Of a stretch of 48,407 nucleotides of DNA, positions 3,312 to 39,301 are shown piece by piece (the first letter of the stretch is position 1; every line of letters begins with the position of its first letter). The notes beneath the pieces are model-generated. The model saw only the letters and a program-made list of their open reading frames with translations, was not told where the DNA came from and ran no database searches. Both the position numbers and the translations under genes were made by a program. The DNA comes from Geobacteraceae bacterium GWC2_55_20. Its GTDB lineage: Bacteria > Desulfobacterota > Desulfuromonadia > Geobacterales > Pseudopelobacteraceae. The stretch is from contig MGZK01000038.1 of NCBI GenBank assembly GCA_001802125.1, positions 1 through 48,407 of the forward strand. Reading direction: 5' to 3'.

Positions 3312-6300
3312 ATGCAGCGTCGATTTTCCAGGTTTACCTCCATTTTCCGTTGCATAACAATTTCCCTGTTTTTGTTGGCTTGTTCGGTTCCGGCTTCTTT
3401 TGCCGCCACCTGCGACAATCCTTACAACTTTGACTTGGTCATCGGATTGGAATTTGTAGCGGTTCAATGCGTCGGCGAAGGAATGAATGACAATTCCACG
3501 ATACATTACGTAGTTAACATGATTGGCTGCGATGGTGCAAAAGTATATCTCAATGGTTCGTTTGGTGATGACTATGGGACTCCAGGATACATAGCTACTA
3601 GCTTGAAGGATAGTGTTAATGGCTACCGTGTCTTTCGCAACAAGGAAGGCACCCACATCATGGCAGTTTTTGGGTCTTATAACGGTCATGTCGACGGGAT
3701 TTACGTTAATAGCTACGCACCAGGGCAAATTTACACCGACGTTTTCAAGAACGCTCTTATCCTGCCAGCCACCCCCAACTGCGATGGTGGCGACCACAAT
3801 GATGGTTGTAATGAACGAAATAGTAGTTCAACCGTCAATCTCGGAACAGGCCGTCTCTCCCACGATCAGCGGATATTCACATTAAACAGCGGCTTACCCC
3901 TTGCCCTGGACATTTCACTATACTACCGCAGCATCCCCTTTGCCCCCAGCGCCATAGGAGATGGCTGGAGCCATAGCTATGAAATGTCACTTCAAAATGG
4001 CGCGGGAACTTCCAAAGTGTTCTGGTATCATGGGAAACGCCGCATTTACAACAAATACACTACCGCCTATGTCTCGCCCAAAGGAGATTACTCCTCGCTG
4101 CTCCAAAACGCTGACGGCACCTGGACAATAACCGAACCGGACGGCCTGAGACGCAACTTCGACGTTTCGGGCAACATAACATCTCTCGTTGATCGATATG
4201 GAAACGCCCTTACTTTCAACTACACATCCGGAAAACTTACGACAGTTACCGATCCTGGTAATCGTACCGTCACTTTCGGTTATGATCCCACCAGCGGCAA
4301 GCTCGTAACCATCACCGATCCGAACAATAAGAGTTACACTCTCGACTACCCGAACGGAAAACTCGAAACCTTGACGCTCCCTGGCGGCGATCAATGGGGG
4401 TATACCTATAACGCCTCAAACGGATTGCTTGAAACCAAGACCGATCCGGATCTTTTCTCAAGCAGTTATGTTTATACCGGGCAGAAAGTTACAGCCGCCA
4501 CCGACCCAAATCTGAAAGCCAGCGGATACTCCTTTGCGGCGCCGACGGCGGCCGGCAAGATTCCGGATGCCTACCCGATCCAGGTCGCCATACTAAAATA
4601 CTTTACACTTGCCGATAAAGATCTGAACAGTTGGGTATTTACCTATGATGGCTTGATCGAAAAAATTCGCAGTAAGAAGGACCCGCTTAACTACACCACC
4701 AATTATACCTACTACCCCAATGGGCTCAGAAAATCAGTCACTGAACCGCCCATGAACGGCGTCAGCTACACCACTTTTTACACATATGACCTGCTGGGCA
4801 ATGTAACCAACGAAACTGAACCGCTCGACACATCGGCTCTGGGCATTGATCCCGACCTGGTTGTCGATCCCGCAACCGACAGCCGCATCAATACCAAGTT
4901 CGCCTTCAGCTACACCTACGACCTGACCAACACAAATCCCGCCTTCAAGAACCTCATCACCCGAATGGACGATAAACGCGGGCCGAATATTCTTACAACC
5001 ACTTACAGCTATAGCACCGACGCCGAGGGTTATCTGGTCACTGCCGTCACCGATCCGGCCATGGCGACCACCGTCATCCGTCACTACAGCAATGGCAAGA
5101 TAAAGGACATTACCGACGCAAACCTGAAACAGACCACATACAACTATTATGACGACACTCCGCAAAATCAGGCAGCAAAGGTGGTCGGATTCCTGAAGTC
5201 GATAGTCACACCGGATGGCGTCACCACAAGCTATTACGATCCCTCCAATGTCAATGTCGCCTATGACGCCAACGGCAACAACATCTGGCATGTGATCCTG
5301 GATAAGGACGGAGTGCCGCGCAAAACGGTGATATCCACCTACGACGACAGAAACCGCCTGCAGACCGTTACCACCCGCGCCCCGGGCCAGCCGGACATCA
5401 TCACCACCTACGGCTACGATGCCAACGACAACCTGAACTCCGTCAAGGACGCCGAACAGAAGGAAACAAAATACCTCTTCGACTTTAATCGCCAAACCAC
5501 CAAAATCACCGATGCCAGACTGAAATCAACCGACCTGGTTTACGGCGGCAGCGGATGCCCCTCCTGCGGCAACGGCGCCGACAAACTCACCAGCGTCACC
5601 GATGCCAACCAGCACTCCACCACCTATTCCTACGACAAGGTTGGTCGCCTGGAATACGAGACCGATCCGCTGGGCAAGAAGTACCACTACACCTACCACC
5701 CCAACGGCAAGCTCGATAAGAAGTACAACGCCACTTCCGGCACCGATGTGCTGCAGGTAAGCTACAACCACAACAATCGCGGCCAGCTTACCGGCAAGCA
5801 GTATGCCGACGGCTCCAGCGTCTCATACGGATACGACGAAAACGGCAGGATTCAGACCGCGAGCAATGCCAACATCAGCTATACCTTCAGCAATTACACC
5901 GGCGGAAGTTACAAAGGCCGGCTGAAGAGCGTCAAAGACAACACCAACAACCGGACCGTCAGTTACGAACAATACAACGCCCTTGGACAGCGCAAACAGG
6001 TAACCGTCAGCGATGTCAACGGCTCAAGAACCACCACCCACCAATATGACGACGCCAACCGCCCCTGGATCATCACCGCCGGAACCAAGGTCTTTACCTA
6101 CCTCTACGACAAATTGGGCCGACGCGATACCATCAGCTATCCCAACAGTGTCACAGCCAAACACGACTACGACAACCTGGACCGACTGACCGGCATCAAA
6201 CATTCTACGGCCACGGCAACAATCACATTCGCCAACTACTCAGGCTTCGACAAGACCGGCAGCCGCAAAAGCAAGATCACATCAAACGGCGCCGAAACCT

Positions 6301-7466
6301 ATCAATACGACGAAATCTACCGCCTGACCCAAACCGACACCCCCAAAGGTCCGGAAAAATACAGCTACGATGATGTCGGCAACAGGACCGGCGGTCCCGG
6401 CCCCAAGGAATCACTCCCGATCATCACCTACGCCTACGACGACGCCAACCGCATGACCCACGGCAGGCAACTCGTTTACGACTACGACGACGCCGGCAAC
6501 CAGACCGCCAGAAGCATCCCCAATACTCCGGACAAGGGGTGGACACTGACCTGGGACCTGGAGAACCGGTTGACCCGGATGGAGAAATTCAGGAAGGTCA
6601 ACAACATCATCGTCGAGAGCAGAACCATCGACTTCAAGTACGACCCCTTCGACAGAAGGATCGAGAAGAAGGTCACCACACTCATCAATGACGTCACGAA
6701 AACCACCACCTGGAGCTACCTGTACGATGGCGATAATATCGCTGCGGAGTACTTCGGCACAACCGCGACCTATTACATCCACGGCCCCGGCGTCGATGAA
6801 CACCTGGCAATGGAGCGCGGCGGTGTCGATTACTACTATCATGCCGACGGCTTGGGGAGCGTCACGGCGATAACCGATTCCTCTTCCTCCCCTGCCATAG
6901 TACAAAGCTACAGTTACGACAGTTTTGGAGTGCCGAGACAGACGACCAGCTTCCCAAATTCGTTTATGTACACTGGCAGGGAGTGGGATAAGGAGGCTGG
7001 GCTGTATTACTACCGGGCACGGTATTATGATCCGATGGAGGGGCGGTTTGTTTCTAAGGATCCGATTGGGTCCAAAGGTGGAGATGTTAATCTTTACGGG
7101 TACGTCCATCAAAATCCCATAAATAAAATAGACCCATTAGGGCTCAAAGAATCATGCGTTTGGGGCGGATTTTCTGGTTCTATTGCATTTGGGATAGGTC
7201 TACAAGTGGTTGCAGAATGCGGTAGATGTGTTGATGATTGCGGCAAAGTAACTTACAGAAGACGCAATTGTCTGTGTTTTTGTTATGGCTTAGGAGCGAG
7301 TGCGAGTGGGCAAGCAGGAAGGGGGGATTCCTCCTTCGACCAGTCTGGATGGAACGTGTCTACACCATATGGGTCTGTTTCAGGAAGTGGAACATCAGTT
7401 ACTGGAGGAGGTTATGGACCTGGTGCCGGAGTATTCTACTGTAATTGTAGTTGCAGCTATAACTAA
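3312..7466 (+). CDS. Secreted Rhs/YD-repeat protein with variable C-terminal tip
   Basis: This 1384-residue protein starts with a Sec-type signal peptide (basic RR, hydrophobic stretch, ASFAA near residue 31). Residues ~30-165 are an unassigned exported domain. Residues ~170-250 match the DUF6531 entry domain of Rhs proteins (NLGTGRLSH, GWSHSYE). Tens of YD repeats (YDxxGN.., YxYD..) follow to about residue 1170. The Rhs core runs from ~1174 (HADGLGSV, YTGREWD, YYRARYYDPMEGRF) and ends at DPLGL (1274-1278). The last 106 residues are a unique tip rich in Gly, Ser and Cys (CGRC, CLCFC, CNCSC). In the family the repeats form a shell around a C-terminal toxin or effector and the tip is swapped between strains; toxicity here is inference. 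It is preceded by sigma-54-like and repeat elements and followed by AT-rich small genes. The frame is intact. Confidence 0.92.
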   Translation: MQRRFSRFTSIFRCITISLFLLACSVPASFAATCDNPYNFDLVIGLEFVAVQCVGEGMNDNSTIHYVVNMIGCDGAKVYLNGSFGDDYGTPGYIATSLKDSVNGYRVFRNKEGTHIMAVFGSYNGHVDGIYVNSYAPGQIYTDVFKNALILPATPNCDGGDHNDGCNERNSSSTVNLGTGRLSHDQRIFTLNSGLPLALDISLYYRSIPFAPSAIGDGWSHSYEMSLQNGAGTSKVFWYHGKRRIYNKYTTAYVSPKGDYSSLLQNADGTWTITEPDGLRRNFDVSGNITSLVDRYGNALTFNYTSGKLTTVTDPGNRTVTFGYDPTSGKLVTITDPNNKSYTLDYPNGKLETLTLPGGDQWGYTYNASNGLLETKTDPDLFSSSYVYTGQKVTAATDPNLKASGYSFAAPTAAGKIPDAYPIQVAILKYFTLADKDLNSWVFTYDGLIEKIRSKKDPLNYTTNYTYYPNGLRKSVTEPPMNGVSYTTFYTYDLLGNVTNETEPLDTSALGIDPDLVVDPATDSRINTKFAFSYTYDLTNTNPAFKNLITRMDDKRGPNILTTTYSYSTDAEGYLVTAVTDPAMATTVIRHYSNGKIKDITDANLKQTTYNYYDDTPQNQAAKVVGFLKSIVTPDGVTTSYYDPSNVNVAYDANGNNIWHVILDKDGVPRKTVISTYDDRNRLQTVTTRAPGQPDIITTYGYDANDNLNSVKDAEQKETKYLFDFNRQTTKITDARLKSTDLVYGGSGCPSCGNGADKLTSVTDANQHSTTYSYDKVGRLEYETDPLGKKYHYTYHPNGKLDKKYNATSGTDVLQVSYNHNNRGQLTGKQYADGSSVSYGYDENGRIQTASNANISYTFSNYTGGSYKGRLKSVKDNTNNRTVSYEQYNALGQRKQVTVSDVNGSRTTTHQYDDANRPWIITAGTKVFTYLYDKLGRRDTISYPNSVTAKHDYDNLDRLTGIKHSTATATITFANYSGFDKTGSRKSKITSNGAETYQYDEIYRLTQTDTPKGPEKYSYDDVGNRTGGPGPKESLPIITYAYDDANRMTHGRQLVYDYDDAGNQTARSIPNTPDKGWTLTWDLENRLTRMEKFRKVNNIIVESRTIDFKYDPFDRRIEKKVTTLINDVTKTTTWSYLYDGDNIAAEYFGTTATYYIHGPGVDEHLAMERGGVDYYYHADGLGSVTAITDSSSSPAIVQSYSYDSFGVPRQTTSFPNSFMYTGREWDKEAGLYYYRARYYDPMEGRFVSKDPIGSKGGDVNLYGYVHQNPINKIDPLGLKESCVWGGFSGSIAFGIGLQVVAECGRCVDDCGKVTYRRRNCLCFCYGLGASASGQAGRGDSSFDQSGWNVSTPYGSVSGSGTSVTGGGYGPGAGVFYCNCSCSYN

Positions 7467-7830: not shown

Positions 7831-8409
7831 ATGAAGGATGTAAATCCCAAAGAAGACGCACATGAAATTGCCGCTGAACTATATGACCAAGGAAAAAATA
7901 AGGAAGCATTTCAGAAATATTTTGACTTGGCTAGCTCTGGGTCGATTACTGGACAGTTGATGGTTGGTTGGATGTACCATTCAGGCTTGGGTGTTGAGCA
8001 AAACTCTGAGGAAGCAGAACATTGGTATCAAAAGGCAGCTTATGCTAATTCCGCTGAGGGACAATATTATCTCGGTGCATTATACAGATCGAATCAGCAG
8101 TATCATCAGGCAGTTGAATGGATTTCCAAGGCTGCTGATCAAAAGTACATGCCAGCCTTATATCGATTAGGGAGAATGTACGATATAGGTGAAGGTGTAA
8201 ACATAGATCTTGCGAAAGCATATGAATATTTTGAGCAAGCAGCAAATATGGGACATTTATTTGCAAAAAGAGAGATCGCTGTGAAGATGATTAAAGGCCA
8301 TTTCGGCCCTATAAATATTATAAAAGGGGTATTGATGTTTGTCCGTGTTCTTTTTGCCGGTGCCAGATTAGCATCAAAAGATGCTGATACTGATATGATT
8401 CGTAAGTAG
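7831..8409 (+). CDS. Sel1-repeat (TPR-like) protein
   Basis: This 192-residue protein has no signal peptide and is built of tandem ~36-residue Sel1-like repeats from about residue 40 to 145 (LMVGWMYHSGLGVEQN.., AEHWYQKAA, YLGALYR, YRLGRMYDIGEGV, AYEYFEQAA). Such helical repeats mediate protein contacts. The C-terminal 45 residues are basic and hydrophobic (IIKGVLMFVRVLFAGARLA) and may touch the membrane. Sel1 proteins often accompany Rhs and other polymorphic toxins, as immunity or adaptor factors. Base composition is AT-rich like the gene before it, suggesting joint acquisition. No clear ribosome-binding site precedes the ATG, so translation may be coupled to the upstream gene. Confidence 0.82.
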   Translation: MKDVNPKEDAHEIAAELYDQGKNKEAFQKYFDLASSGSITGQLMVGWMYHSGLGVEQNSEEAEHWYQKAAYANSAEGQYYLGALYRSNQQYHQAVEWISKAADQKYMPALYRLGRMYDIGEGVNIDLAKAYEYFEQAANMGHLFAKREIAVKMIKGHFGPINIIKGVLMFVRVLFAGARLASKDADTDMIRK

Positions 8410-9698: not shown

Positions 9699-9734
9699 AA
9701 AGGGGCACCCGGTAGATACGCCGGATGCCCCTTT
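9699..9734. terminator. Bidirectional terminator between convergent genes
   Basis: An AAAGGGGCA-CCCGG / CCGG-TGCCCCTTT hairpin with an 8-nt loop lies between the convergent genes ending at 9674 (plus) and 9759 (minus). In the minus-strand RNA the one imperfect position is a G-U pair. The T tracts are short on both sides. Confidence 0.7.
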
Positions 9735-9758: not shown

Positions 9759-10625
9759 TCAGTTCTTTATCAGCAGGATCATTTCCATCTGGTCGCCATC
9801 GCCGATATGTATCGGGAAAGAAAGCGCCGTGTGGCCTTCTGGAACCGGCAGCCCGCCTGCGGGCGGATGGACCGTGACCGGTGGGTTGATGTTCAGTATC
9901 ACTCCCATCTGTGAAGCCTTGGCGGCTACGTTGCCGCAGACCACGTTGACGAATTCCATCACCGTATCTTCCAGCACTTCCGGCGGCTCGTCCGCAACCG
10001 ATTCTTCACGCAGTATGGCTTTGGCAATGGATTGCTGCAGACCTTCGGAAACCGAGACCAGGTATCGCGCCTCCAGGTCGCCGCTGAAATCCATGGCCGC
10101 CATCATGAAGTTGGGGGCGATCACCTCGGCACGGACGCATTTTCCCGGCCGGAACTGCAGGTCCAGCACACGGGTGATCATCTTGTAGGTAAGGTCGGCC
10201 GTCATCTCCCAGATCTTGCTGTTGGCAATGCCGTCAGGCAGCTCGATGCCGTCGGATACATACATGGCCTGGTCGGCCTTGAAATCCGCCAGATGCTGTT
10301 GAAGGTTTTCACTGCTGATGGCTCCGACCTGAACCAGCGCCTCTCCGATATACAGATGGGTGTTCTTCTGTCTGGTGATGACATCGTTTAACTGGGTAAG
10401 CGTCAGGAAACCCATTTCAACCAGCATGTCACCCAGTTTCATGTCCTTGGACATCTGGGCGTTGTGAGCCCGCTCGATTTCGGTCTGGGTTATGTAGCCC
10501 ATAGATACAGCCATTTCACCCAGTTTGAGGTTCTTCTGGTCCTGAAGCTCGATTGCGTTGACCAGGGCATCTCTGGATACAATGCCCTGTTCCACGAGAA
10601 ACTGTCCGAAAAATTTAACCGCCAT
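9759..10625 (-). CDS. MshEN-repeat/CheX fusion: putative c-di-GMP-responsive CheY-P phosphatase
   Basis: This 288-residue soluble protein has two parts. The N-terminal 115 residues are four 24-residue motifs at 5-28, 34-57, 63-86 and 92-115, each separated by exactly five residues; motifs 2 and 3 begin KLG and end in Gln, with Gly at motif position 10. This geometry (24 + 5 + 24) is that of the MshEN c-di-GMP-binding domain, here doubled. Residues ~130-288 are a CheX-type domain with the phosphatase signature D220-x3-E224-x2-N227 and a downstream Pro-Pro. CheX proteins dephosphorylate CheY-P. The gene lies 103 nt behind a CheY-like regulator on the same strand and has an AAGGAG ribosome-binding site. 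Dephosphorylation of that regulator under c-di-GMP control is inference; in all motifs the usual RLG arginine is replaced (Lys in two). Confidence 0.8.
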   Translation of the reverse strand: MAVKFFGQFLVEQGIVSRDALVNAIELQDQKNLKLGEMAVSMGYITQTEIERAHNAQMSKDMKLGDMLVEMGFLTLTQLNDVITRQKNTHLYIGEALVQVGAISSENLQQHLADFKADQAMYVSDGIELPDGIANSKIWEMTADLTYKMITRVLDLQFRPGKCVRAEVIAPNFMMAAMDFSGDLEARYLVSVSEGLQQSIAKAILREESVADEPPEVLEDTVMEFVNVVCGNVAAKASQMGVILNINPPVTVHPPAGGLPVPEGHTALSFPIHIGDGDQMEMILLIKN

Positions 10626-10728: not shown

Positions 10729-11088
10729 TCAGAGCTCACGCAGAATTCTCAGTACGTTGTCCGTTTCAAACGGTTTTGATATAACATTCTTTGCGCCCAG
10801 TTTCAGCGCCTCGGTGAACTTGTCGCCAACCCCTCCCAGGGAAGTCACCATCACGACCTTGACTTCCTTGTCCATTACAGACAGGGTCCTCAGAGCCGTG
10901 AGGCCATCCATGCCGGGCATGTTCATGTCCATGCAGATGATATCCGGGTTTTCGGAATGGTTCATCTTGATCGCTTCCGCGCCGTTCTTGGCGTGCCCGA
11001 CACATACAAAGTCGCCAGACTCACTGATTATTTTTTCAAGCTGGCGAACAACCGAAAGGCTGTCATCAACTACCAGTACCTTCTTCAT
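10729..11088 (-). CDS. CheY-like single-domain response regulator
   Basis: This 119-residue receiver domain has the acidic pair DD near residue 8, the phospho-acceptor Asp in CMDMNMPGMDG (~53), the switch Thr in MVTS and the conserved Lys in SKPF. It has no output domain. The frame extends 23 codons further upstream, but the start at 11088 (MKKVLVVDDS) fits the family and has GAGG and GTGGAA sequences upstream. It is first in a minus-strand pair with the MshEN-CheX gene and sits behind a good sigma-70 promoter at 11167-11195. By family knowledge it is phosphorylated by a kinase such as CheA and acts by binding a target; the CheX neighbour is the likely phosphatase. Confidence 0.88.
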   Translation of the reverse strand: MKKVLVVDDSLSVVRQLEKIISESGDFVCVGHAKNGAEAIKMNHSENPDIICMDMNMPGMDGLTALRTLSVMDKEVKVVMVTSLGGVGDKFTEALKLGAKNVISKPFETDNVLRILREL

Positions 11089-11166
11089 TTCCACAATTCC
11101 TCCCGTAGAGCCGTGCAATCGTATCCGGCCGGGCCGGTTACGGACGTTTAGCGCCAATCTGGGGCG

Positions 11167-11195
11167 AATGTATCTGAAACATGATGAAATGTCAA
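11167..11195 (-). promoter_or_regulatory. Sigma-70-type promoter for the CheY/CheX pair
   Basis: On the minus strand a perfect TTGACA (11195-11190) is followed after 17 nt by TACATT (11172-11167). Transcription would start near 11160, about 70 nt before the regulator's start codon. Confidence 0.65.
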
Positions 11196-17585: not shown

Positions 17586-17924
17586 ATGAATACCGAAGCC
17601 GGCGAATCGTTAAAAACATGCCTGGATGGCGAATGCTCGATGAGTACCGTAGCCGGGAAGTATCCGGCGCTGATGAACTGTCTTGCCCGTCTTTTGGATT
17701 CCGGCGCTTCCGGCGAACGGAATGATTGCTCAACGAGCGGCGCTCTGCTGGTGGACCTGACGGGCGTCACCGACATAGATGCCTGTGGCTGCCAGTTGCT
17801 GGCGCTATTCCTGAGCGGTCTGAAACAGAACAATATAAGTGCGCAACTGACCAACATTCCAGATACGATCAGATCCAAAATCCATTTTTTGGGATTTGAC
17901 AGTGAATTCAATCTCTCACATTGA
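17586..17924 (+). CDS. Second STAS-domain protein, phospho-site replaced
   Basis: This 112-residue protein has a STAS core at about residues 54-85 (LLVDLTGVTDIDACG..LLALFLSG). The phospho-acceptor position of DSSG proteins is Cys67 here (D65-A-C-G), with Cys69 close by and further Cys at 12, 17, 32 and 48, so Ser phosphorylation is not possible at the usual place. It resembles the MlaB-like STAS proteins found beside cheA in several deltaproteobacteria. It sits 32 nt after the first STAS gene and 17 nt before cheA. Its role could be a scaffold or a redox-responsive version of its neighbour; that is speculation. Confidence 0.78.
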   Translation: MNTEAGESLKTCLDGECSMSTVAGKYPALMNCLARLLDSGASGERNDCSTSGALLVDLTGVTDIDACGCQLLALFLSGLKQNNISAQLTNIPDTIRSKIHFLGFDSEFNLSH

Positions 17925-17941
17925 TCACCAAGGAATTCCGC

Positions 17942-20065
17942 ATGACTCAGTCCGATCAGAATAACAACATAGATCTCAATCAGTTCAACCAGGTCTTTTT
18001 CGAGGAATGCGCCGAGCACCTGGCCGAGATGGAACAGATACTTGTGTCGCTTCCCGATGAGGGGCCTGACGAGGAACAGCTGAATGCAATCTTCAGGGCG
18101 GCCCATTCTATCAAGGGGGGGGCGGGGATTTTCGGCTTTCAGGATATGACCGTCGTCACCCATGTTCTGGAATCCCTGCTGGACCGCATGCGCAATCATG
18201 AGATCCCCTTCAGTACTGCCATGGTCGATCTTTTTCTTGAAGCGGGTGACGTGATTTCCATGCAGCTGGCCGGGCACCGTGACGGAGCCTTCGTGCGGCA
18301 GGAGGCCATTGAGCAGATCAGTGCCAAACTGCAGCAGGTTATCGATGCCGGCAGCTTAGATGCTCCGGCCGGGAGCGCTTCTGCGGCAATGATACCGGTT
18401 CCCGAGGAAATCGCTCAATCAGGTACCGTTGCCTCAGAGCACTCCGATCAGCGCTATGAGCTCGTGTTCACCCCTGACCCCGATATCTTCAGGCGCGGCA
18501 TCCGCCTGGAAAACCTGTTTGCCGAACTGGAAGAGCTGGGTGAGTTGACCGTAACCGCCGGGTTACCGGCAACGACCGATTTCAATTCAATTGATCCGGA
18601 AATCTGTGTCTGCAGTTGGCGCATGACTCTGGTCACAACTGCCGGCGAAGCGGATATTCGCGACATTTTTGAATTCGTGGCCGATCTGGATCAGCTGCAG
18701 CTGCGTACGGTATCGGAAAATGTCAGGGAAATTAGTGCCAGCGATGATTCCAAAGCAATTGCCACGGTGACTCCGCCAGAAAATACCCGCTTGATGCCCA
18801 CCGGCGAATCCGCTGCCGATCCCGCAGGAGCAGCGACCGGCAGGAGGGCCTACGACAAAAACGAGCTTGCTGCCGGAGCCTATGGCCGCCGCACCAGCGA
18901 GGCCGAGTCGTCGATCCGTGTCGGCGTTACCAAGGTGGACCAGTTGATCAACCAGGTCGGAGAGCTGGTGATTACCCAGCTGATGCTGGCCCAGACCGCA
19001 ACCGTTCTCGACCCGGTACTCCACGAAAATCTTCACCGGAGCCTGTTGCAGCTGGAGCGCAACACCCGTGACCTGCAGCAGAGTGTCATGTCGATCCGCC
19101 TGGTGCCGATCAGCATCGTCTTCAGCCGTTTTCCCCGCATGGTGCGTGAACTGGCCGCGAAGCTGGGCAAACAGGTGGAACTGAAAACAGTCGGGGATAC
19201 CACCGAGCTGGACAAGGGGTTGATTGAAAAGATTACCGACCCGCTCACCCATCTGGTGCGCAACTGCATGGATCATGCGCTGGAGACTCCCGAGGCGAGA
19301 ATCGCGGCCGGGAAAGAGCCCTGCGGCACCATCACGCTGCGCGCCTCGCAGATTGGCGGCCGGATCGTTATCGACGTGATTGACGACGGCGCCGGTCTGA
19401 ATCGCGCCAAAATTCTCGCCAAGGCCGCCGAACGCGGTATTCCGGCCTCCGACAACATGAGTGACGAGGAGGTCTGGCAGCTGATCTTTGCTCCGGGCTT
19501 TTCCACCGCCGAATGCGTTACGGATATTTCCGGACGCGGAGTCGGTATGGACGTTGTTTTGAGAAATGTACAGTCCATGAGCGGCAGGGTCAATATATCG
19601 TCCGAGCCCGGCAATGGTACGAGGGTCACCATCAGCCTGCCGCTGACACTCGCTATTCTGGATGGGCTTTCGGTTGCGGTCGGCCAGGAGAAATTCATCA
19701 TCCCGCTCAACTCGATCGTGGAATCGCTCCAGCCCGCACCTGAAAGCCTGAAGACAGTCAACGGTGGAAACGTGGTTCATGTGCGTGGTGAATACATCCC
19801 GATCATTGCGTTGTACGAGCTGTTCAACATGGATGCGCTGGTCAAGGAACCGGGAAAAGGAATTCTGATCCTGATCGATGTCGAGGGCGAAAAGGCGGCG
19901 CTTCTGGTGGATGCCCTGCTTGATGAACACCAGGTGGTCATTAAGAGTATCGAAACAAATTACCGCAAGGTCGAGGGCACGGCCGGAGCCACCATTCTGG
20001 GCGATGGCCGGGTTGCGCTGATACTGGACGTAAACTCATTGTTTCGGATGAGAAAACAGAAATAG
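17942..20065 (+). CDS. cheA: Chemotaxis histidine kinase CheA
   Basis: This 707-residue kinase has an Hpt domain with phospho-acceptor His55 (AHSIKGGAGIFGF), a middle region (~170-270, FTPDPDIFRRGIRLENLFAELEELG type) in the place of the P2 regulator-binding domain, a dimerisation region (~320-385), the ATP-binding domain with N-box around Asn441 (NCMDHALE) and G-boxes (DDGAGL, GRGVGMDVV), and a CheW-like domain at the C-terminus (~570-707). It takes signals from the MCP arrays via CheW and phosphorylates CheY and CheB. The N-box has DHA where DHG is usual, while Asn, Asp and His are kept. The ATG at 17942 has AAGGA seven nucleotides upstream; a TTG 21 nt earlier overlaps the STAS gene and is less likely. 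Confidence 0.94.
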   Translation: MTQSDQNNNIDLNQFNQVFFEECAEHLAEMEQILVSLPDEGPDEEQLNAIFRAAHSIKGGAGIFGFQDMTVVTHVLESLLDRMRNHEIPFSTAMVDLFLEAGDVISMQLAGHRDGAFVRQEAIEQISAKLQQVIDAGSLDAPAGSASAAMIPVPEEIAQSGTVASEHSDQRYELVFTPDPDIFRRGIRLENLFAELEELGELTVTAGLPATTDFNSIDPEICVCSWRMTLVTTAGEADIRDIFEFVADLDQLQLRTVSENVREISASDDSKAIATVTPPENTRLMPTGESAADPAGAATGRRAYDKNELAAGAYGRRTSEAESSIRVGVTKVDQLINQVGELVITQLMLAQTATVLDPVLHENLHRSLLQLERNTRDLQQSVMSIRLVPISIVFSRFPRMVRELAAKLGKQVELKTVGDTTELDKGLIEKITDPLTHLVRNCMDHALETPEARIAAGKEPCGTITLRASQIGGRIVIDVIDDGAGLNRAKILAKAAERGIPASDNMSDEEVWQLIFAPGFSTAECVTDISGRGVGMDVVLRNVQSMSGRVNISSEPGNGTRVTISLPLTLAILDGLSVAVGQEKFIIPLNSIVESLQPAPESLKTVNGGNVVHVRGEYIPIIALYELFNMDALVKEPGKGILILIDVEGEKAALLVDALLDEHQVVIKSIETNYRKVEGTAGATILGDGRVALILDVNSLFRMRKQK

Positions 20066-20104
20066 TCTTTGCATGAACATCATCAAACGGAGGTAATTCA
20101 AATT

Positions 20105-20596
20105 ATGCAGACAGGTCAGGAACTTATCGGCAAAAACGGGACGGGTGTCGCCTCGGAGTACCTCACCTTCACCCTGGGAAGCGAGGAGTACGGGATCGAT
20201 ATCCTCAAGGTTCAGGAGATCCGTGGATACGATACGGTTACCCATATCGCCAACGCTCCGGAGTTCATCAAGGGTGTGATAAACCTGCGCGGTGTGATCG
20301 TACCGATCGTTGACATGCGGATCAAGTTCAAGGTTGGCGTTCCGAGCTACAACGAATTTACCGTGGTGATCATCATGAACGTTCTGGGCAGGGTAATCGG
20401 AATGGTGGTTGACGGTGTTTCCGACGTTGTGGCCCTTAGCGGAGACCAGATCAAGCCGGCTCCTGAAATGGGGGCGGCGATGGATACGGATTATATCACC
20501 GGGCTCGGTACGCTGAACGACCAGATGCTGATCCTGGTGGATATCGAAAAGCTGATGAGCAGTGAAGAGATGCAGGTCATGGAACAGGTAAACTGA
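20105..20596 (+). CDS. cheW: Chemotaxis coupling protein CheW
   Basis: This 163-residue protein is a single CheW domain ([56 protein letters not shown]), linking receptors to CheA. The frame opens 12 codons earlier, but CGGAGGT at 20088-20094 lies ten nucleotides before the ATG at 20105, so that start is chosen. It is 39 nt after cheA and 29 nt before the mcp gene, in the canonical order. Length is typical for the family. Confidence 0.94.
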
Positions 20597-20625
20597 TCAA
20601 ATACAAGGGGAAAGGCGGTAACAGC

Positions 20626-22365
20626 ATGAAAATCAAGAGCTTTAAAAATTGGAAAATCCTCAACAAGATACTGAGCATCTCAATCACCACCATCGCTTTG
20701 CTGATACTGGGGGTCACTTTTTATCTGCTGCCATACATGGAACACAACCTGCTGGCGGAAAAAGAATTGGCGACCAAGGGCGTTGTTGACGTGGTCTATG
20801 CGATTCTCGAAGGGTATGAGGTGCAGGTGAAAGCCGGCGCCCTCCCGTTGGCGGAAGCCCAGAAGAGGGCTCTGGAGAGAATCAGGACCATCCGGTATCA
20901 CGGCAACGAATACTTCTGGATCAACGATCTGGAACCAAAGGTGCTTACCCATGGTGCAAACCAGGATCTGATCGGCAAGAACGTGGCCGATATTAAGGAT
21001 CCCAACGGCAAGCAGATCTTCGTCGAATTTGTCAAGGTGGCGAAAGATAAAGGGGAAGGAATCGTCGAGTACCAATGGGCAAAGGCCGGCTCTACAAAGC
21101 CCGTGGACAAGATCTCCTACATCAAGCTGATGAAGGAATGGGGCTGGGTCGTCGGCAGCGGTATCTACGTCGATGACGTCAAAAAAGAGGTGGCAAAGAC
21201 GCGCATCAAGATTCTCGGAGCTACAGCAGTGCTGGCCCTGGTGATCTTTGCCTTTGCCTGGCTGGTTGCCCGCCGGATCAAGGAAGCCCTTGACAGGGCC
21301 ATCAGCGTGTCGGAACAGATCGCGGCCGGAGACCTGACCGTCAAGATCGAGATCGACAGCCAGGACGAGACCGGACACCTTTTGGGGTCATTGAAAGAGA
21401 TGAATGAAGGTCTGGCGCGAATAGTTGGTGAAGTGCGCAGCGGGGCCGATTCAATTGCCACGGCCACCGAGCAGATTTCGGCCGGCAACGCCGACCTTTC
21501 CCAGCGGACCGAAGAGCAGGCTTCGGCGCTCGAAGAAACCGCCTCCAGCATGGAGGAACTGACTTCCACCGTCAAGCAGAACGCCGACAACGCCCAGCAG
21601 GCCAACCAGCTGGCGATCAGCGCCAGCGGTGTAGCGGTAAAAGGTGGCGACGTGATCAATAAGGTCGTGCGCACGATGGAATCGATTACCGACAGTTCCC
21701 GCAAGATATCGGATATCATCGGCGTGATCGACGGCATCGCCTTCCAGACCAATATCCTGGCGCTGAATGCCGCAGTGGAAGCGGCCCGGGCCGGCGAACA
21801 GGGGCGGGGGTTTGCCGTGGTGGCCGCCGAGGTGCGCAGCCTGGCCCAGCGTAGCGCCGCCGCTGCCAAGGAGATCAAGGCCCTGATCGAGGATTCGGTC
21901 GGCAAGGTCCAGGATGGCAGCAGGCTGGTGGAAGAGGCCGGGCATACCACCCAGGAGATCGTTACCAGCATCAAGCGGGTGACCGATATCATGGCCGAGA
22001 TTTCCGCCGCTTCGCTGGAGCAGTCCAGCGGCATCGAACAAGTCAATACCGCCATCACCCAGATGGACGACGTCACCCAGCAGAATGCCGCCCTGGTCGA
22101 GCAGGCCGCCGCTGCCGCCGAGTCGCTTGAGGAGCAGGCGCTGCAACTGGTGCAGGTCGTGACGCGCTTCAAATTGGAGGAGTCCCGCCAGTCACAAAAG
22201 GTCTCGGCCGACAAGAAGCCCCGGCGGATTCAGCCGCTACATCCAGAACTTCCCGGCAAAAAGGCCGGTCGGTCGGGCGTGGTCAATAATCAGAAAAAGG
22301 GTGATTCGCTCAAACTGGCCGCACCCAAAGCAGCGGATGAGGATGAGGACTGGAAAGAATTTTGA
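20626..22365 (+). CDS. Methyl-accepting chemotaxis protein, sCache sensor, CheR-docking tail
   Basis: This 579-residue receptor has a membrane helix at ~14-35, a periplasmic single-Cache domain (~40-190; [22 protein letters not shown]), a second helix at ~193-213, a HAMP domain, and the long cytoplasmic coiled coil with its hairpin tip near 373-400 ([23 protein letters not shown]). The extreme C-terminus is an acidic linker ending DWKEF, which fits the x-W-x-x-F pentapeptide that tethers CheR. cheR is the next gene, 49 nt away. Such Cache receptors usually sense small organic acids or related metabolites; the ligand cannot be told. It lies between cheW and cheR and is probably the main receptor of this system. 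Confidence 0.94.
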
Positions 22366-22414
22366 TGGATTGAAGTTGGAACGTGCTTTTACTGTTGACC
22401 ATGGGGAGTTGTGA

Positions 22415-23287
22415 ATGTCGGCGATAAGCGCTATTAAAAAACCGGCATTCGGAAATGAGTCCGGTGAAAGGGAACTGTACCTGTTCCCTTTCACCGATGA
22501 CGATTTTCACCGTATCAGAGGCCTGATTTACCGGGTCGCGGGCATTTCCCTGGCTCCGTCCAAGAGAGATCTGGTCTACAGCCGTCTGGCCCGCCGCCTC
22601 AGGGCCCGGCTGATTGATTCATTCAGCGAGTATATCCGGCTTCTGGAGAGCGGCGACAAGCTGGAACGAGAGGAGTTCATCAACGCCCTCACAACCAACA
22701 TGACCTCCTTCTTCAGGGAGGCCCACCATTTTCCGATTCTCGCGAAACACCTGGGCGCCATCCCCAGATCCAATCATGTCAACATCTGGACATGCGCCTC
22801 CTCCAGCGGCGAGGAACCCTATTCGATCGCCATGACGGTAGTGGAACAGTATAAGAGCTTCAACGCACCGGTCAGGATTCTGGCTACCGACATCGACACC
22901 AATGTTCTGGACAAGGCCAGGCGTGGTGTCTATTCGCTGGATCAGCTCCAGAAGGTTTCCCCTGAACAGCTCAAGCGTTTCTTTCTGAAAGGTGACGGCA
23001 AAAACGCGGGCTTCGCAAAAATCAGGCCCGAGCTCCAGCAGATGATCACCTTCAGGCGATTCAACCTGCTGGATGAACAGTGGGGTGTTAATGAGAAGTT
23101 CGATGTGATATTTTGCAGGAACGTTATGATCTATTTCGACAAGGAAACCCAGTACCGGATTTTGAAAAAGATGCAGCCCTGCCTGCATCCGCACGGACTG
23201 TTCTTTGCCGGTCATTCCGAGAGCTTTCATCATGCGTCCGACCTGTTCAAGGTGTGCGGTAAAACGGTCTATTCACCCAATAACTAA
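22415..23287 (+). CDS. cheR: Chemoreceptor methyltransferase CheR
   Basis: This 290-residue protein has the helical CheR N-terminal domain (~25-90; [18 protein letters not shown]) and the AdoMet-binding domain ([59 protein letters not shown]). It methylates glutamates on MCPs for adaptation. The ~20-residue extension at the N-terminus is not conserved. GGGAG precedes the ATG. It is five nucleotides from cheD. Confidence 0.94.
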
Positions 23288-23292
23288 CCGAT

Positions 23293-23859
23293 ATGCACCG
23301 GGGAAGATATTTTTCGACCAGCAGTTATTATGACCGTCTTTCCGATTCAACTGCGATCAAGATCCTTCCCGGCCAGTATCATGCAACCGCTGACGGCACC
23401 GTCATCACCACCGTATTGGGATCATGCGTGTCGGTATGTCTCTTTGACACTATCAGCGGAGTAGGTGGAATGAATCATTACATGTTGCCGGGTGATAGCG
23501 GGGAGCTTGTCAGAATCTCCTCCGGTTCGGCGCGTTACGGAACCCACGCGATGAAACTGTTGCTCGAACATGTGCTCCAGCTGGGCGCGGAGCGCTCACG
23601 GCTTGAGGCAAAGGTTTTCGGCGCCGGCAAGGTGATGGACGGCATGAGCGATGTGGGGCGGCAGAATGCCGATTTTGCCGTGCGTTATTTAAGAGACCAG
23701 AAAATCAGAATTGCCGCGGTTGATGTGGGCGATATTTACCCCAGAAAGATCTGCTTTTACCCGGCCACCGGTCAGGTGTTCGTAAAACGGATTCAAAATC
23801 AGGAACTTTCACCGGAAATATTGCGGGATATCTTCACAAGCGGCCGCCAAAAGCAATAA
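23293..23859 (+). CDS. cheD: Chemoreceptor glutamine deamidase CheD
   Basis: This 188-residue protein has the CheD catalytic Cys45 in LGSCVSVC and His62 in GGMNHYMLP, followed by KVFGAGKVM and the conserved [10 protein letters not shown]. CheD deamidates Gln to Glu on MCPs and in some bacteria is drawn away by CheC and CheY-P. It follows cheR by five nucleotides with no clear ribosome-binding site, so translation is probably coupled. It is slightly longer at the N-terminus than usual. The CheX relative at 9759 could take the CheC-like role in this genome, but no CheC is seen here. Confidence 0.93.
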
Positions 23860-23891
23860 TGTAACCTGACACTGATAAACGGGATATCGAT

Positions 23892-24983
23892 ATGCCGATC
23901 AAGGTTCTTATCATAGACGATTCAGCGCTAATCCGGAGTCTTTTGACCGAAATCATCAACAAACAGCCGGATATGGAGGTGGTTGGGACCGCCCCCGACC
24001 CGCTGGTTGCCAGGGAAAAGATCAAGGCGCTCAACCCGGACGTGCTGACGCTGGATGTGGAGATGCCGAAGATGGATGGCCTGGCCTTCCTGGAAAAACT
24101 GATGCGTCTGCGTCCGATGCCGGTAGTGATGGTGTCTTCGCTGACGGAGAAGAGTTCCTCGATTACCCTGCATGCGCTGGAGCTGGGAGCGTTTGATTTT
24201 GTTACCAAGCCCAAGATCGACATCCGCAACGGCCTGCAGGAGTATGCCGAGGAACTGACCGGCAAAATCCGTGGTGCGGCCAGGGCGCGTATGCGGCGGC
24301 CGACAGCGATCAGTGCCGCGCATATTGCGGTCGAACAGAAAAACAGCGCCGACGTTGTCCTGGCCGCCGAGCACCGCACCTTTTCCTCTACCGAGAAGGT
24401 CATCATCGTGGGCGCTTCCACCGGAGGCACCGAGGCTTTGAAAACTCTTCTGGTGGATATGCCCGCCGATTGTCCGGCTGTTCTGATTACCCAGCATATG
24501 CCGGAAACGTTTACCAAGACCTTTGCAAAACGGCTCGACAGCCTCTGCAGGATAGCGGTCAAGGAAGCCGAACATGGCGAACGGGTTCTGCCTGGGCATG
24601 GTTACCTGGCTCCCGGTAATCGCCACCTGCTTCTGAAGCGGAGCGGCGCAAATTACATCGTGGAACTCTCGGATGGCCCCCCGGTGAGCCGTCACCGGCC
24701 GTCCGTGGATGTGCTGTTCCGTTCCGCCGCCAACTGCGCCGGCAAAAACGCGATCGGAATCATCATGACCGGAATGGGAGATGACGGCGCCGCCGGCATG
24801 CTGGAAATGCACCAGGCCGGCGCCTATACCCTGGCGCAGGATGAGGAGAGCTGCGTGGTATTCGGCATGCCGAAAGAAGCCATAGCCCATGGAGGAGTTG
24901 ACGAGGTGGTTCCGCTTCAGGATATGTCCAGGCGTCTGTCGGTCTGGTTGTCATCCCAGGGCAAGCGAGGATTCAGGGTGTAA
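23892..24983 (+). CDS. cheB: Chemotaxis response regulator methylesterase CheB
   Basis: This 363-residue two-domain protein has a receiver with Asp55 in [12 protein letters not shown] and a C-terminal methylesterase with the catalytic triad Ser176 (GASTGG), His202 (TQHMP) and Asp298 ([11 protein letters not shown]). Phosphorylated by CheA, it removes receptor methyl groups. Start and length are normal. The last 29 codons including the stop are repeated at 26995-27081 (79 of 87 bp identical), evidence that a second cheB-like gene once lay downstream. A stand-alone CheB esterase domain is also encoded at 33153. Confidence 0.95.
24897..24983 (+). repeat. Copy A of an 87-bp direct repeat (end of cheB)
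   Basis: This stretch aligns without gaps to 26995-27081 with eight mismatches. Weaker similarity continues on both sides, upstream into cheB from ~24858 and downstream to a shared GTTTGTCAG/GGTTGTCAG. The two copies flank the kinase gene at 25028-26953. Confidence 0.85.
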
Positions 24984-37178: not shown

Positions 37179-39301
37179 GCGTGCTTGGGAAAAGTCCGGT
37201 TTTGTTGACCATCGATGATGAAGAGGCGATACGCGGCAGCGTGGCGGCCTATTTCGAGGATAGCGGTTTTACCGTGATCCAGGCCTGTGACGGCCGCGAC
37301 GGGATCGACAAGATCACCAGCATGCGTCCGGATATTGTTATCACCGATCTGCGCATGCCGATCGTGGACGGTTTGGAGGTCGTCGATGCGGTCTGCCGTA
37401 TGGATGACAACCTGCCGGTAATCGTTCTTTCCGGCACCGGCGTGCTGGACGATGTTATTCAGGCCCTGCGGCGGGGAGCCTGGGACTATCTGGCCAAGCC
37501 GGTCAAGGATCTGGTCGCCCTGGAGCTGGTTGTCAACCGCTGTCTGGAACGCGCCCGGCTGATCGGTGAAAACCGTGACTACCATGAAAATCTGGAACAG
37601 CTTGTCGTCCAGCGCACCGCCGAACTGCGCAAGCTGACAACCGCGGTGGAACAGAGCGCCAATAGCGTGATCATCACCAGCGCGGATGGTGTCATAGAGT
37701 ATGTCAACCCGAAGTTTACCGCCGTATCCGGGTACACCCCGGAGGAAGCGATCGGGAAGACGCCGCGCCTGCTGAAATCCGGCCGGCAGAACGACGCCTG
37801 TTATGCCGGGATGTGGGATACCATCAAGTCCGGGAAGGAGTGGCAGGGAGAGTTTTGTAACAAGGCCAAGGACGGCCGGCAGTTCTGGGAGCTTTGCAGT
37901 ATTGCGCCGATCAAGGATGAGTCCGGTGTGATAACCCACTTCGTCGGGATCAAGGAAGATATCAGCGAGCATAAACGCCATGAGGAACAACTCTACTACC
38001 AGGCCAATTTTGACGGGTTGACCGGCTTGCCCAATCGTCATTATTTCCAGAAATACCTGGCCCTGCAGCTTGAATTGATAAATCGCGAAAATCAGCTGCT
38101 GGCGTTGCTGGTGCTGGATATCGACAACCTGAAGTTCGTAAACGATACCTTCGGGCATGAATTCGGCGACCTTCTGCTCAAGGAGATAGCGCGCCGGCTG
38201 GAAATGTCCGGTGGTTTGGGCAGCTTCATATCCCGTTTCGTCGGTGATGAATTTATCATCGTTCTCCCGCCGACAACGGAAGCCAATCAAGCCGTCCAGT
38301 TTGCGGAAATGATTCACAGTGCCATGAATGAAGCATTTGTGATCAAGGGCTCCGAAATCATGTCAACCGCCAGTATCGGCGTGGCGGTCTATCCCGAGGA
38401 CGGAAAATCCGTCGAAAGCCTGCTGAAAAACGCCGAGGCGGCCATGTACCAGGCCAAGAAGGATTGTAAGAATGCGGTCTGTTTCTACACCAGCGAACTG
38501 AATTTTCAACTGGAACAGCGCTTTGCCATGGAATCGAAGCTTTACAAGGCGCTGGAGCGTGATGAATTCAGCCTGCTGTATCAGCCGCAGATAGGACTGC
38601 CCGACGGCGGCATCATCGGTATGGAGGCGCTGTTGCGCTGGACGCCGAAGGGCGAGGAAGTGGTCTCTCCCAGCCAGTTCATTCCGCTTTTGGAGGAGAC
38701 CGGCCTGGTCGTTGCCGTGGGGGAATGGGTGCTGTTGAGGGCCTGTACACAGGCGGCGGCATGGCGCAAACAGGGGCTGCCGCCGATGCGGATGTCAGTC
38801 AATATTTCGGCGCTGCAGTTCATGCGCAGCGATCTGGACGAAACAGTCAAGCGCGTGCTGGATGTCACCGGTTATGACCCGGCTTATCTCTGCCTGGAGC
38901 TGACAGAGAGCATGATCATGATCGACAGTATGCGCACCATGGAAAAACTTACCGCGTTGACAGACATCGGAATAACACTGTCACTGGATGATTTCGGCAC
39001 CGGATATTCATCGCTGGAATACCTGGGGCGTCTGCCGATCCAGGAGTTGAAGATCGACCAGTCTTTCGTACGGCGGATGCTGACCACAAAAAACGATGCG
39101 GCCGTGGTCAACACGATCATCGCGATGGGACGTGGGTTGGAGATGGATTTGGTGGCGGAAGGAGTTGAAACCGAAGATCAACTTGCATATCTGGCGGAAA
39201 AAGGCTGCACGGTCATTCAGGGCTATTTTTTCAGCCGTCCGCTGACCGCCGATGATTTTGCTTTGTACTGTATGGATCGAAAATGCCGGGATGCAGCCTG
39301 A
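37175..39301 (+). CDS. REC-PAS-GGDEF-EAL c-di-GMP enzyme with degenerate GGDEF
   Basis: This 708-residue protein has a receiver (Asp58 in ITDLRMPIVDG), a coiled-coil linker, PAS-PAC (~152-275), GGDEF (~280-440) and EAL (~450-700). The GGDEF active site reads VGDEF (356-360), losing the first Gly, so cyclase activity is doubtful. The EAL domain keeps its signature residues: E484-A-L, Asn in SVNIS, Glu in LELTES, Asp-Asp in LDDFGTGYSS, Lys in LKIDQSF, Glu in AEGVET and Gln in QGYFFSRP. It is therefore likely a c-di-GMP phosphodiesterase regulated by phosphorylation, perhaps with the GGDEF domain as a GTP sensor. The ATG at 37175 overlaps the upstream stop; the frame is open earlier but overlaps two genes. 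Confidence 0.93.
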   Translation: MSVLGKSPVLLTIDDEEAIRGSVAAYFEDSGFTVIQACDGRDGIDKITSMRPDIVITDLRMPIVDGLEVVDAVCRMDDNLPVIVLSGTGVLDDVIQALRRGAWDYLAKPVKDLVALELVVNRCLERARLIGENRDYHENLEQLVVQRTAELRKLTTAVEQSANSVIITSADGVIEYVNPKFTAVSGYTPEEAIGKTPRLLKSGRQNDACYAGMWDTIKSGKEWQGEFCNKAKDGRQFWELCSIAPIKDESGVITHFVGIKEDISEHKRHEEQLYYQANFDGLTGLPNRHYFQKYLALQLELINRENQLLALLVLDIDNLKFVNDTFGHEFGDLLLKEIARRLEMSGGLGSFISRFVGDEFIIVLPPTTEANQAVQFAEMIHSAMNEAFVIKGSEIMSTASIGVAVYPEDGKSVESLLKNAEAAMYQAKKDCKNAVCFYTSELNFQLEQRFAMESKLYKALERDEFSLLYQPQIGLPDGGIIGMEALLRWTPKGEEVVSPSQFIPLLEETGLVVAVGEWVLLRACTQAAAWRKQGLPPMRMSVNISALQFMRSDLDETVKRVLDVTGYDPAYLCLELTESMIMIDSMRTMEKLTALTDIGITLSLDDFGTGYSSLEYLGRLPIQELKIDQSFVRRMLTTKNDAAVVNTIIAMGRGLEMDLVAEGVETEDQLAYLAEKGCTVIQGYFFSRPLTADDFALYCMDRKCRDAA

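Follow-up and report, generated by a model that had tools for sequence, protein, structure and literature searches.

Locus and question

Whether the biofilm messenger cyclic dimeric guanosine monophosphate (c-di-GMP) could act directly on the lifetime of a phosphorylated chemotaxis-type regulator is the question raised by two adjacent genes, cheY and cheX, in a 48,407-nucleotide stretch from Geobacteraceae bacterium GWC2_55_20 (contig MGZK01000038.1; the whole stretch is referred to as the window). The cheX product joins an N-terminal array of four MshEN-type motifs, M1 to M4, to a C-terminal CheX phosphatase domain, and cheY encodes a single-domain CheY-like regulator. A sequence-only reading of this DNA had suggested direct c-di-GMP control of the lifetime of phosphorylated CheY (CheY-P). 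Our findings pointed in the same direction, and the best explanation overall is probably that a c-di-GMP receptor array and CheX together set the CheY-P lifetime of a dedicated CheY.

Domains and conserved residues

The open reading frame (ORF) of cheX ran on the minus strand from an ATG at 10625 to a stop codon at 9759-9761. All four 24-residue motifs with five-residue spacers described in the sequence-only reading were present in the 288-residue product, which matched NCBIfam NF053729 (MshE-related c-di-GMP motif) at 4.7e-28 over two stretches (96.7 bits, cut-off 38); each neighbouring motif pair, scored alone, exceeded that cut-off. Scored against a relaxed form of the published motif, 11 positions each (as given in the Methods of PMC5013675), M1 to M4 reached 10, 10, 11, and 9, for a sum of 40/44, and shuffling the protein 2000 times gave at most 30/44. 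The ligand residues comprise a basic or large residue at position 1, Gly at position 3, hydrophobic side chains at positions 17 and 21, and Gln at position 24; M3 had the full set, and M2 departed from it only at position 21, which is H54. M1 departed by Phe at position 1, and M4 by Tyr at position 1 and Phe at position 24.

A scan of genome collections confirmed 126 relatives, of which the best 80 were used for all locus counts. Alignment A3 comprised the window protein and 76 of these 80 loci (77 rows), L142, L147, L165, and L172 being excluded as partial or interrupted. Gly at motif position 3 was kept in M1 to M4 and Gln at position 24 in M1 to M3, each in 77/77 rows. The PF05157 (MshEN) profile proposed as a check in the sequence-only reading gave no row at E ≤ 1. 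A PilB-like protein encoded by this genome served as a control; in it, PF05157 matched residues 62-148 (3.9e-16), beyond the motif pair placed at approximately residues 10-61 by NF053729. The profile appears to model the subdomain following the motif pair, which has no counterpart in the window protein, and its absence therefore says little about the motifs.

The C-terminal CheX domain was confirmed by PF13690, which matched residues 175-273 at 1.5e-13 (51.1 bits, cut-off 27), and its D-x3-E-x2-N signature, already noticed in the sequence-only reading, was intact as D220, E224, and N227. An AlphaFold2 model of the protein (mean predicted local distance difference test score, pLDDT, 88.0; predicted template modelling score, pTM, 0.58) contained both the CheX fold and the four-helix bundle of an MshEN-type array. 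The three catalytic residues were kept in 77/77 rows, and E224 and N227 aligned to the Glu and Asn of CheX in T. maritima (1xko) and in the B. burgdorferi CheX-CheY complex (3hzh). In CheX-type phosphatases, as described in PMC3035606, the inserted Asn positions water and the acidic residue meets the receiver Lys.

Coupling of cheX to cheY

The adjoining CheY-like gene noted earlier was found upstream of cheX on the same minus strand, with 103 bases between the cheY stop and the cheX ATG. Its start, an ATG at 11088 preceded by GGAGG, was picked by eye, the ORF list giving a TTG at 11157. Residues D8, D9, D54, T82, and K105 were kept in 74/74, 74/74, 76/76, 77/77, and 77/77 of the covering sequences, respectively (77 in total). 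At 77 of the 80 loci, cheY lay directly upstream of cheX on the same strand; the three exceptions were two loci at contig ends (L142 and L145) and one that corresponds to a second copy (L171).

A survey of 277 genomes from the class to which the window belongs (Desulfuromonadia, to judge from the named relatives) gave the same picture. A cheX match (E ≤ 1e-20) occurred in 118 genomes, mostly over nearly the whole query, and a cheY match at E ≤ 1e-34 in 112, all 112 of which also held cheX; at that threshold, cheY was found in none of the 159 class genomes without cheX. Six genomes held cheX without cheY. In G269, cheY was split over two frames; in G064 and G066, cheX was near a contig end and its triad was intact; in G062, G090, and G136, cheY was not found in the survey. 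These last three, together with a second copy in G208, had broken triads, reading END, EEK, EGG, and GND for DEN (E224 remaining in G090), and all four copies retained Gly 3 and Gln 24 of M1 to M3. The second copies L076 and L100, with no adjacent cheY, kept DEN. When only copies with 500 or more upstream bases were counted, the triad was intact in 44/44 that were cheY-linked versus 2/6 that were unlinked, a comparison in which relatedness was uncontrolled.

The CheY partnership is firm, and a CheX phosphatase domain with a dedicated adjacent CheY was supported, its phosphatase function being predicted from conserved residues. The two genes look like an operon; promoter-like and terminator-like sites around them (Table 1) occurred in similar number in shuffled sequence. 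Control by a riboswitch was considered, but no Rfam family matched the window at gathering scores.

Predicted location of the ligand site

The sequence-only reading had divided the array into two tandem MshEN modules, M1+M2 and M3+M4. Sequence scores left the pairing unsettled and, taken alone, are compatible with that arrangement, but it was disfavoured by two structural models and by conservation in distant relatives. In both AlphaFold models, the solved MshEN, GSPII, and PilB c-di-GMP bundles that were listed superposed on M2+M3, starting at residues 28-33. Among the Foldseek matches listed (at most 50 per model, drawn from the top 1000), all 10 MshEN/GSPII/PilB N-domain entries for model 1 fell within residues 28-90. 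In model 2, of a protein 29% identical, all eight such entries listed started at residues 28-32; six ended by residue 91, and two extended to 122 and 124 at a root-mean-square deviation (rmsd) of 7.7 and 5.9. The overlay on MshE suggested earlier thus held in that the bundle superposed (rmsd 1.4 over 58 residues against 5htl), and failed in that it fell on the inner motifs instead of on two pairs.

Conservation indicated the same site. The M4 Gly was lost in both distant groups looked at, and the M2+M3 ligand residues were kept in three groups that are 20-29% identical. A canonical c-di-GMP site formed by M2+M3 is predicted from the models and from this conservation. The Lys-for-Arg change in M2 and M3 had been raised as a doubt about binding; it was mostly removed by published data on PilF GSPII-B, which has Lys and Leu at the Arg positions and binds c-di-GMP at 6 nM.

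Copies with a broken triad

A search with the second copy of G208 returned 17 proteins, eight of which (P0121-P0128) had a broken triad. In all eight, position 1 was non-basic in both inner motifs (Ser or Thr in M2; Leu, Met, or Val in M3), and Lys replaced Q86 in 3/8. The M1 and M4 residues were retained, the M1 start lying outside coverage in P0122 and P0123. Catalysis and predicted ligand residues were lost together, which fits a coupled device, though descent of this branch from one event is likely. The possibility that the branch became a pure c-di-GMP receptor with its array kept was dropped, as the basic residues of M2 and M3 were gone in 8/8.

At four loci with no adjacent cheY, L093 (4001-4864), L086, L091, and L092, the CheX triad was broken in single copies comparable in length.

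Distant relatives and the receiver fusion

Two distant genomes, G651 and G482, encoded proteins of 326-328 amino acids (aa) with the same layout and D-x3-E-x2-N, followed 24 bases downstream by a receiver gene and then by a kinase gene. The array of the G482 protein (L195) passed NF053729 (69.1 bits), and the CheX match was below the Pfam cut-off in both. The kinase, at L195 204-2330 (Hpt, HATPase, and a weak CBS match) and at L194 117-2246 (by eye), is likely the cognate kinase in that distant family.

In Lachnospira eligens, all three parts occurred in one chain of 435 aa, with the array and CheX followed by a C-terminal receiver (REC), giving an MshEN4-CheX-REC protein (WP_012740644.1; L204 6001-7308, NC_012780.1 327730-329037). 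It is annotated "response regulator", and its CheX match was below the Pfam cut-off. The array and CheX D-x3-E-x2-N are shared with the window protein (24% identity over 302 columns, E 1e-18), which differs in having no receiver and in its M4, decayed in the L. eligens protein. The better of two NF053729 stretches in the L. eligens array was residues 40-86, that is, M2+M3.

A protein search with WP_012740644.1 gave 1463 matches, of which the best 120 (P0139-P0258) were taken; 98 of the resulting 121 sequences, query included, were 425-445 aa long and were examined. Few of the fused-protein matches listed were from named organisms, these being Lachnospira and Butyrivibrio. At 20-25% identity to the window protein, the fused proteins kept the K/R, G, and Q of M2+M3 in 98/98 each, CheX D/E/N in 98/98, and the receiver D/D/D/K in 98/98, with T (89) or S (9) at the Thr position. 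The M4 Gly was present in 0/98 and M1 Q28 in 72/98. Conservation in this fused family was the strongest sign that M2+M3 would be the ligand site and the receiver the substrate of CheX.

Proposed mechanism and alternatives

In the mechanism we propose, cheY and cheX would form a dedicated response-regulator/phosphatase pair, in which CheX would dephosphorylate CheY by placing E224 and N227 in the CheY active site. The N-terminal array would be a c-di-GMP receptor with its ligand site at M2+M3 and with M1 and M4 flanking. Bound ligand would alter the phosphatase rate, with either sign conceivable, or the access of CheX to CheY-P, so that cellular c-di-GMP would set CheY-P lifetime. Input may come from a CheA-type kinase, and the output may be flagellar or chemosensory. 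If this is correct, c-di-GMP would work through a phosphatase on the off-rate with which a CheY-type signal ends, and not on motor, pilus, or transcription targets. A biofilm messenger would then probably set the duration of a chemotaxis-type signal. The pairing is found again in distant bacteria, in one case within a single polypeptide, and that fusion, in Lachnospira and its relatives, would bring the same logic to gut bacteria. Tentatively, c-di-GMP may directly gate phosphorylated-receiver lifetime through a cross-phylum module, although we hold this broader proposal with some reserve. In the Geobacter-like class the module would be encoded by adjacent cheY and cheX genes; a second family of the phylum would carry it as a cheX-cheY-kinase run, and Lachnospira and its relatives as a single sensor-phosphatase-receiver protein. 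A side branch would have lost catalysis jointly with the basic residues at the predicted site. As the cheYX system is small, predicted to be soluble, and strictly paired, it could be reconstituted in vitro from just its two proteins.

The array could instead have ceased to bind nucleotides and now have a structural or docking role, either in CheX dimerisation or in tethering CheX to a partner. Several observations favour this role and weigh against a receptor: Arg is missing from the outer motifs and Gln from M4, a polar residue lies in the guanine pocket, some members have a non-basic residue at position 1 of M2 or M3, PilF GSPII-A offers a precedent, and M1 and M4 are conserved even where the triad is broken. 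The earlier doubt over Phe and Tyr in M1 and M4 stands among them, though it would carry less weight with the site at M2+M3. On the other side, the residues with which MshE contacts c-di-GMP (Gly 3, Gln 24, and a mostly basic residue at 1) persisted in M2+M3 across the three distant groups while M4 drifted, and in the inner motifs they decayed where catalysis was lost, leaving a non-binding array unlikely.

Signal flow could also be reversed, with CheX mainly reading phospho-CheY and CheY-P binding tuning an N-terminal receptor directed at some other target. This seems quite improbable, as the D/E/N conservation in A3 and in the fused proteins argues for catalysis, the triad was broken only where cheY was not adjacent, and the M2 and M3 basic residues had also gone in all eight proteins of the broken-triad branch. 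Regarding the ligand, 3',3'-cyclic GMP-AMP (cGAMP) might take the place of c-di-GMP if a polar H54 or N54 accommodated adenine in one half-site; position 54 was H or N in 77/77 rows (71 H, 6 N) and in 98/98 fused proteins (96 N, 2 H). In its favour, cGAMP signalling is described in G. sulfurreducens (PMC8835794), and MshEN binds cGAMP, if weakly (KD 3.3e-4 M). Against it, the guanine specificity of MshE is achieved via backbone amides, and the intact-triad member L181 has Q54. The N54 site is also found in Lachnospira, in which we know of no cGAMP signalling, and this too counts against cGAMP, which we consider very unlikely as the natural ligand. A dedicated CheY whose phosphorylated lifetime would respond to c-di-GMP is the reading that we retain.

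Relation to known systems

The MshEN-CheX layout is a documented kind of fusion. Wang et al. 2016 (PMC5013675) named it in a single phrase when listing what MshEN is joined to, and their main text gives no CheX detail; that fusion and the window protein have in common the two domains in one protein. Among the titles and abstract openings listed in a literature search, with subscription papers and the 2016 supplement outside its scope, none described a test of an MshEN-CheX protein. Our analysis added the four-motif form with a predicted inner site, the exclusive CheY partner, triad loss in copies without a cheY neighbour, the broken-triad branch, and the receiver fusion.

The window protein resembles the MshEN of V. 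cholerae MshE (5htl) and T. thermophilus PilF GSPII-B (8pdk) in its 24-residue motifs, 5-residue spacer, G3, and Q24, and shares with the latter Lys at motif position 1. Unlike both, it has four motifs, no PF05157 match, no ATPase, an aromatic position 1 in the outer motifs, and His at the Leu29 position. In contrast to the CheX of T. maritima (1squ, 1xko) and B. burgdorferi (3hzh), its CheX carries a fused motif array, and the gene is paired with a cheY of its own and not part of a conserved che cluster.

Distribution and genomic context

The titles of the best 80 of the 126 relatives were mostly Geobacter, Geobacteraceae, Desulfuromonadaceae, and Deltaproteobacteria. In an evenly drawn phylum sample, 12/395 genomes matched at E ≤ 1e-25, two of the 12 only over residues 3-119. 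Three members, L157, L163, and L170 (52-55% identity), came from metagenome-assembled genomes labelled Nitrospirae (two) and Chloroflexi (one), labels that may reflect either mis-binning or gene transfer. A plasmid search with the window CheX matched 2 of 72,556 records, only from Lachnospira eligens.

The cheYX pair sits outside any conserved che cluster. In a 2008 survey of three Geobacter genomes (PMC2577667), one cheX was reported in each, and stand-alone CheY genes were mostly outside che clusters. The window itself holds a che cluster approximately 6.5 kb beyond cheY (17586-24983, plus strand), which encodes STAS, CheA (714 aa, Hpt and CheW domains), CheW, a methyl-accepting chemotaxis protein with Cache, CheR, CheD, and CheB. 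Because no stand-alone CheY and no CheC/CheX were found among the nine ORFs scanned there, the cluster is a candidate for making use of cheYX. As a source of the kinase it was considered but not adopted: a relative of the window CheA was near cheYX in only 5 of the 80 loci (44/80 >18 kb), and we therefore claim no cognate kinase. Two CheA-like matches elsewhere in the same genome appeared by eye to be ordinary CheA.

FliG was found in 105/118 cheX genomes versus 89/159 without cheX (Fisher 1e-9, phylogeny uncontrolled) and, within the window's own family, in 58/64 versus 8/12 (p 0.046), eight weak matches (E 3.8e-5 to 9.8e-4) being scored as absent. Because phylogeny was uncontrolled and 13 cheX genomes were without FliG, flagellar output is only a lean.

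Table 1. Features of the cheYX locus, in window coordinates
Feature	Position	Strand	Basis or remark
MshEN4-CheX fusion protein (cheX), 288 aa	9759..10625	-	ORF, profile matches, AlphaFold2 model
Motif M1, residues 5-28; F5 at Arg position 77/77, Q28 77/77	10542..10613	-	motif scoring, alignment A3
Motif M2, residues 34-57 (K34, G36, H54, Q57); first half of predicted canonical c-di-GMP site	10455..10526	-	
Motif M3, residues 63-86 (K63, G65, Q86); second half of predicted canonical c-di-GMP site	10368..10439	-	
Motif M4, residues 92-115; Tyr at Arg position, Phe at Gln position; Gly lost in two distant groups	10281..10352	-	
CheX domain, residues 134-288	9762..10226	-	
Catalytic D220/E224/N227 codons	9966-9968, 9954-9956, 9945-9947	-	
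CheY-like single-domain regulator (cheY), 119 aa; D8 D9 D54 T82 K105	10729..11088	-	PF00072 2.6e-25
Promoter-like TTGACA-17-TACATT, 5' of cheY	11167..11195	-	weak: 1 found vs 1.4 expected by chance in region
Terminator-like 14-bp hairpin, 3' of cheX	9699..9734	-	3 terminator-like sites in region vs 2.0 expected

The genome as a whole gave 21 NF053729 matches, 5 CheX matches, and 34 GGDEF matches (all E ≤ 0.001), the last in line with the proposed role of c-di-GMP. One GGDEF domain is in the window at 38003-38473 (plus strand), within an 847-aa ORF (open frame 860 aa). The window also encodes, by eye, a 1384-aa RHS/YD-repeat-like protein (3312-7466, plus strand) and a SEL1-like ORF (7831-8409).
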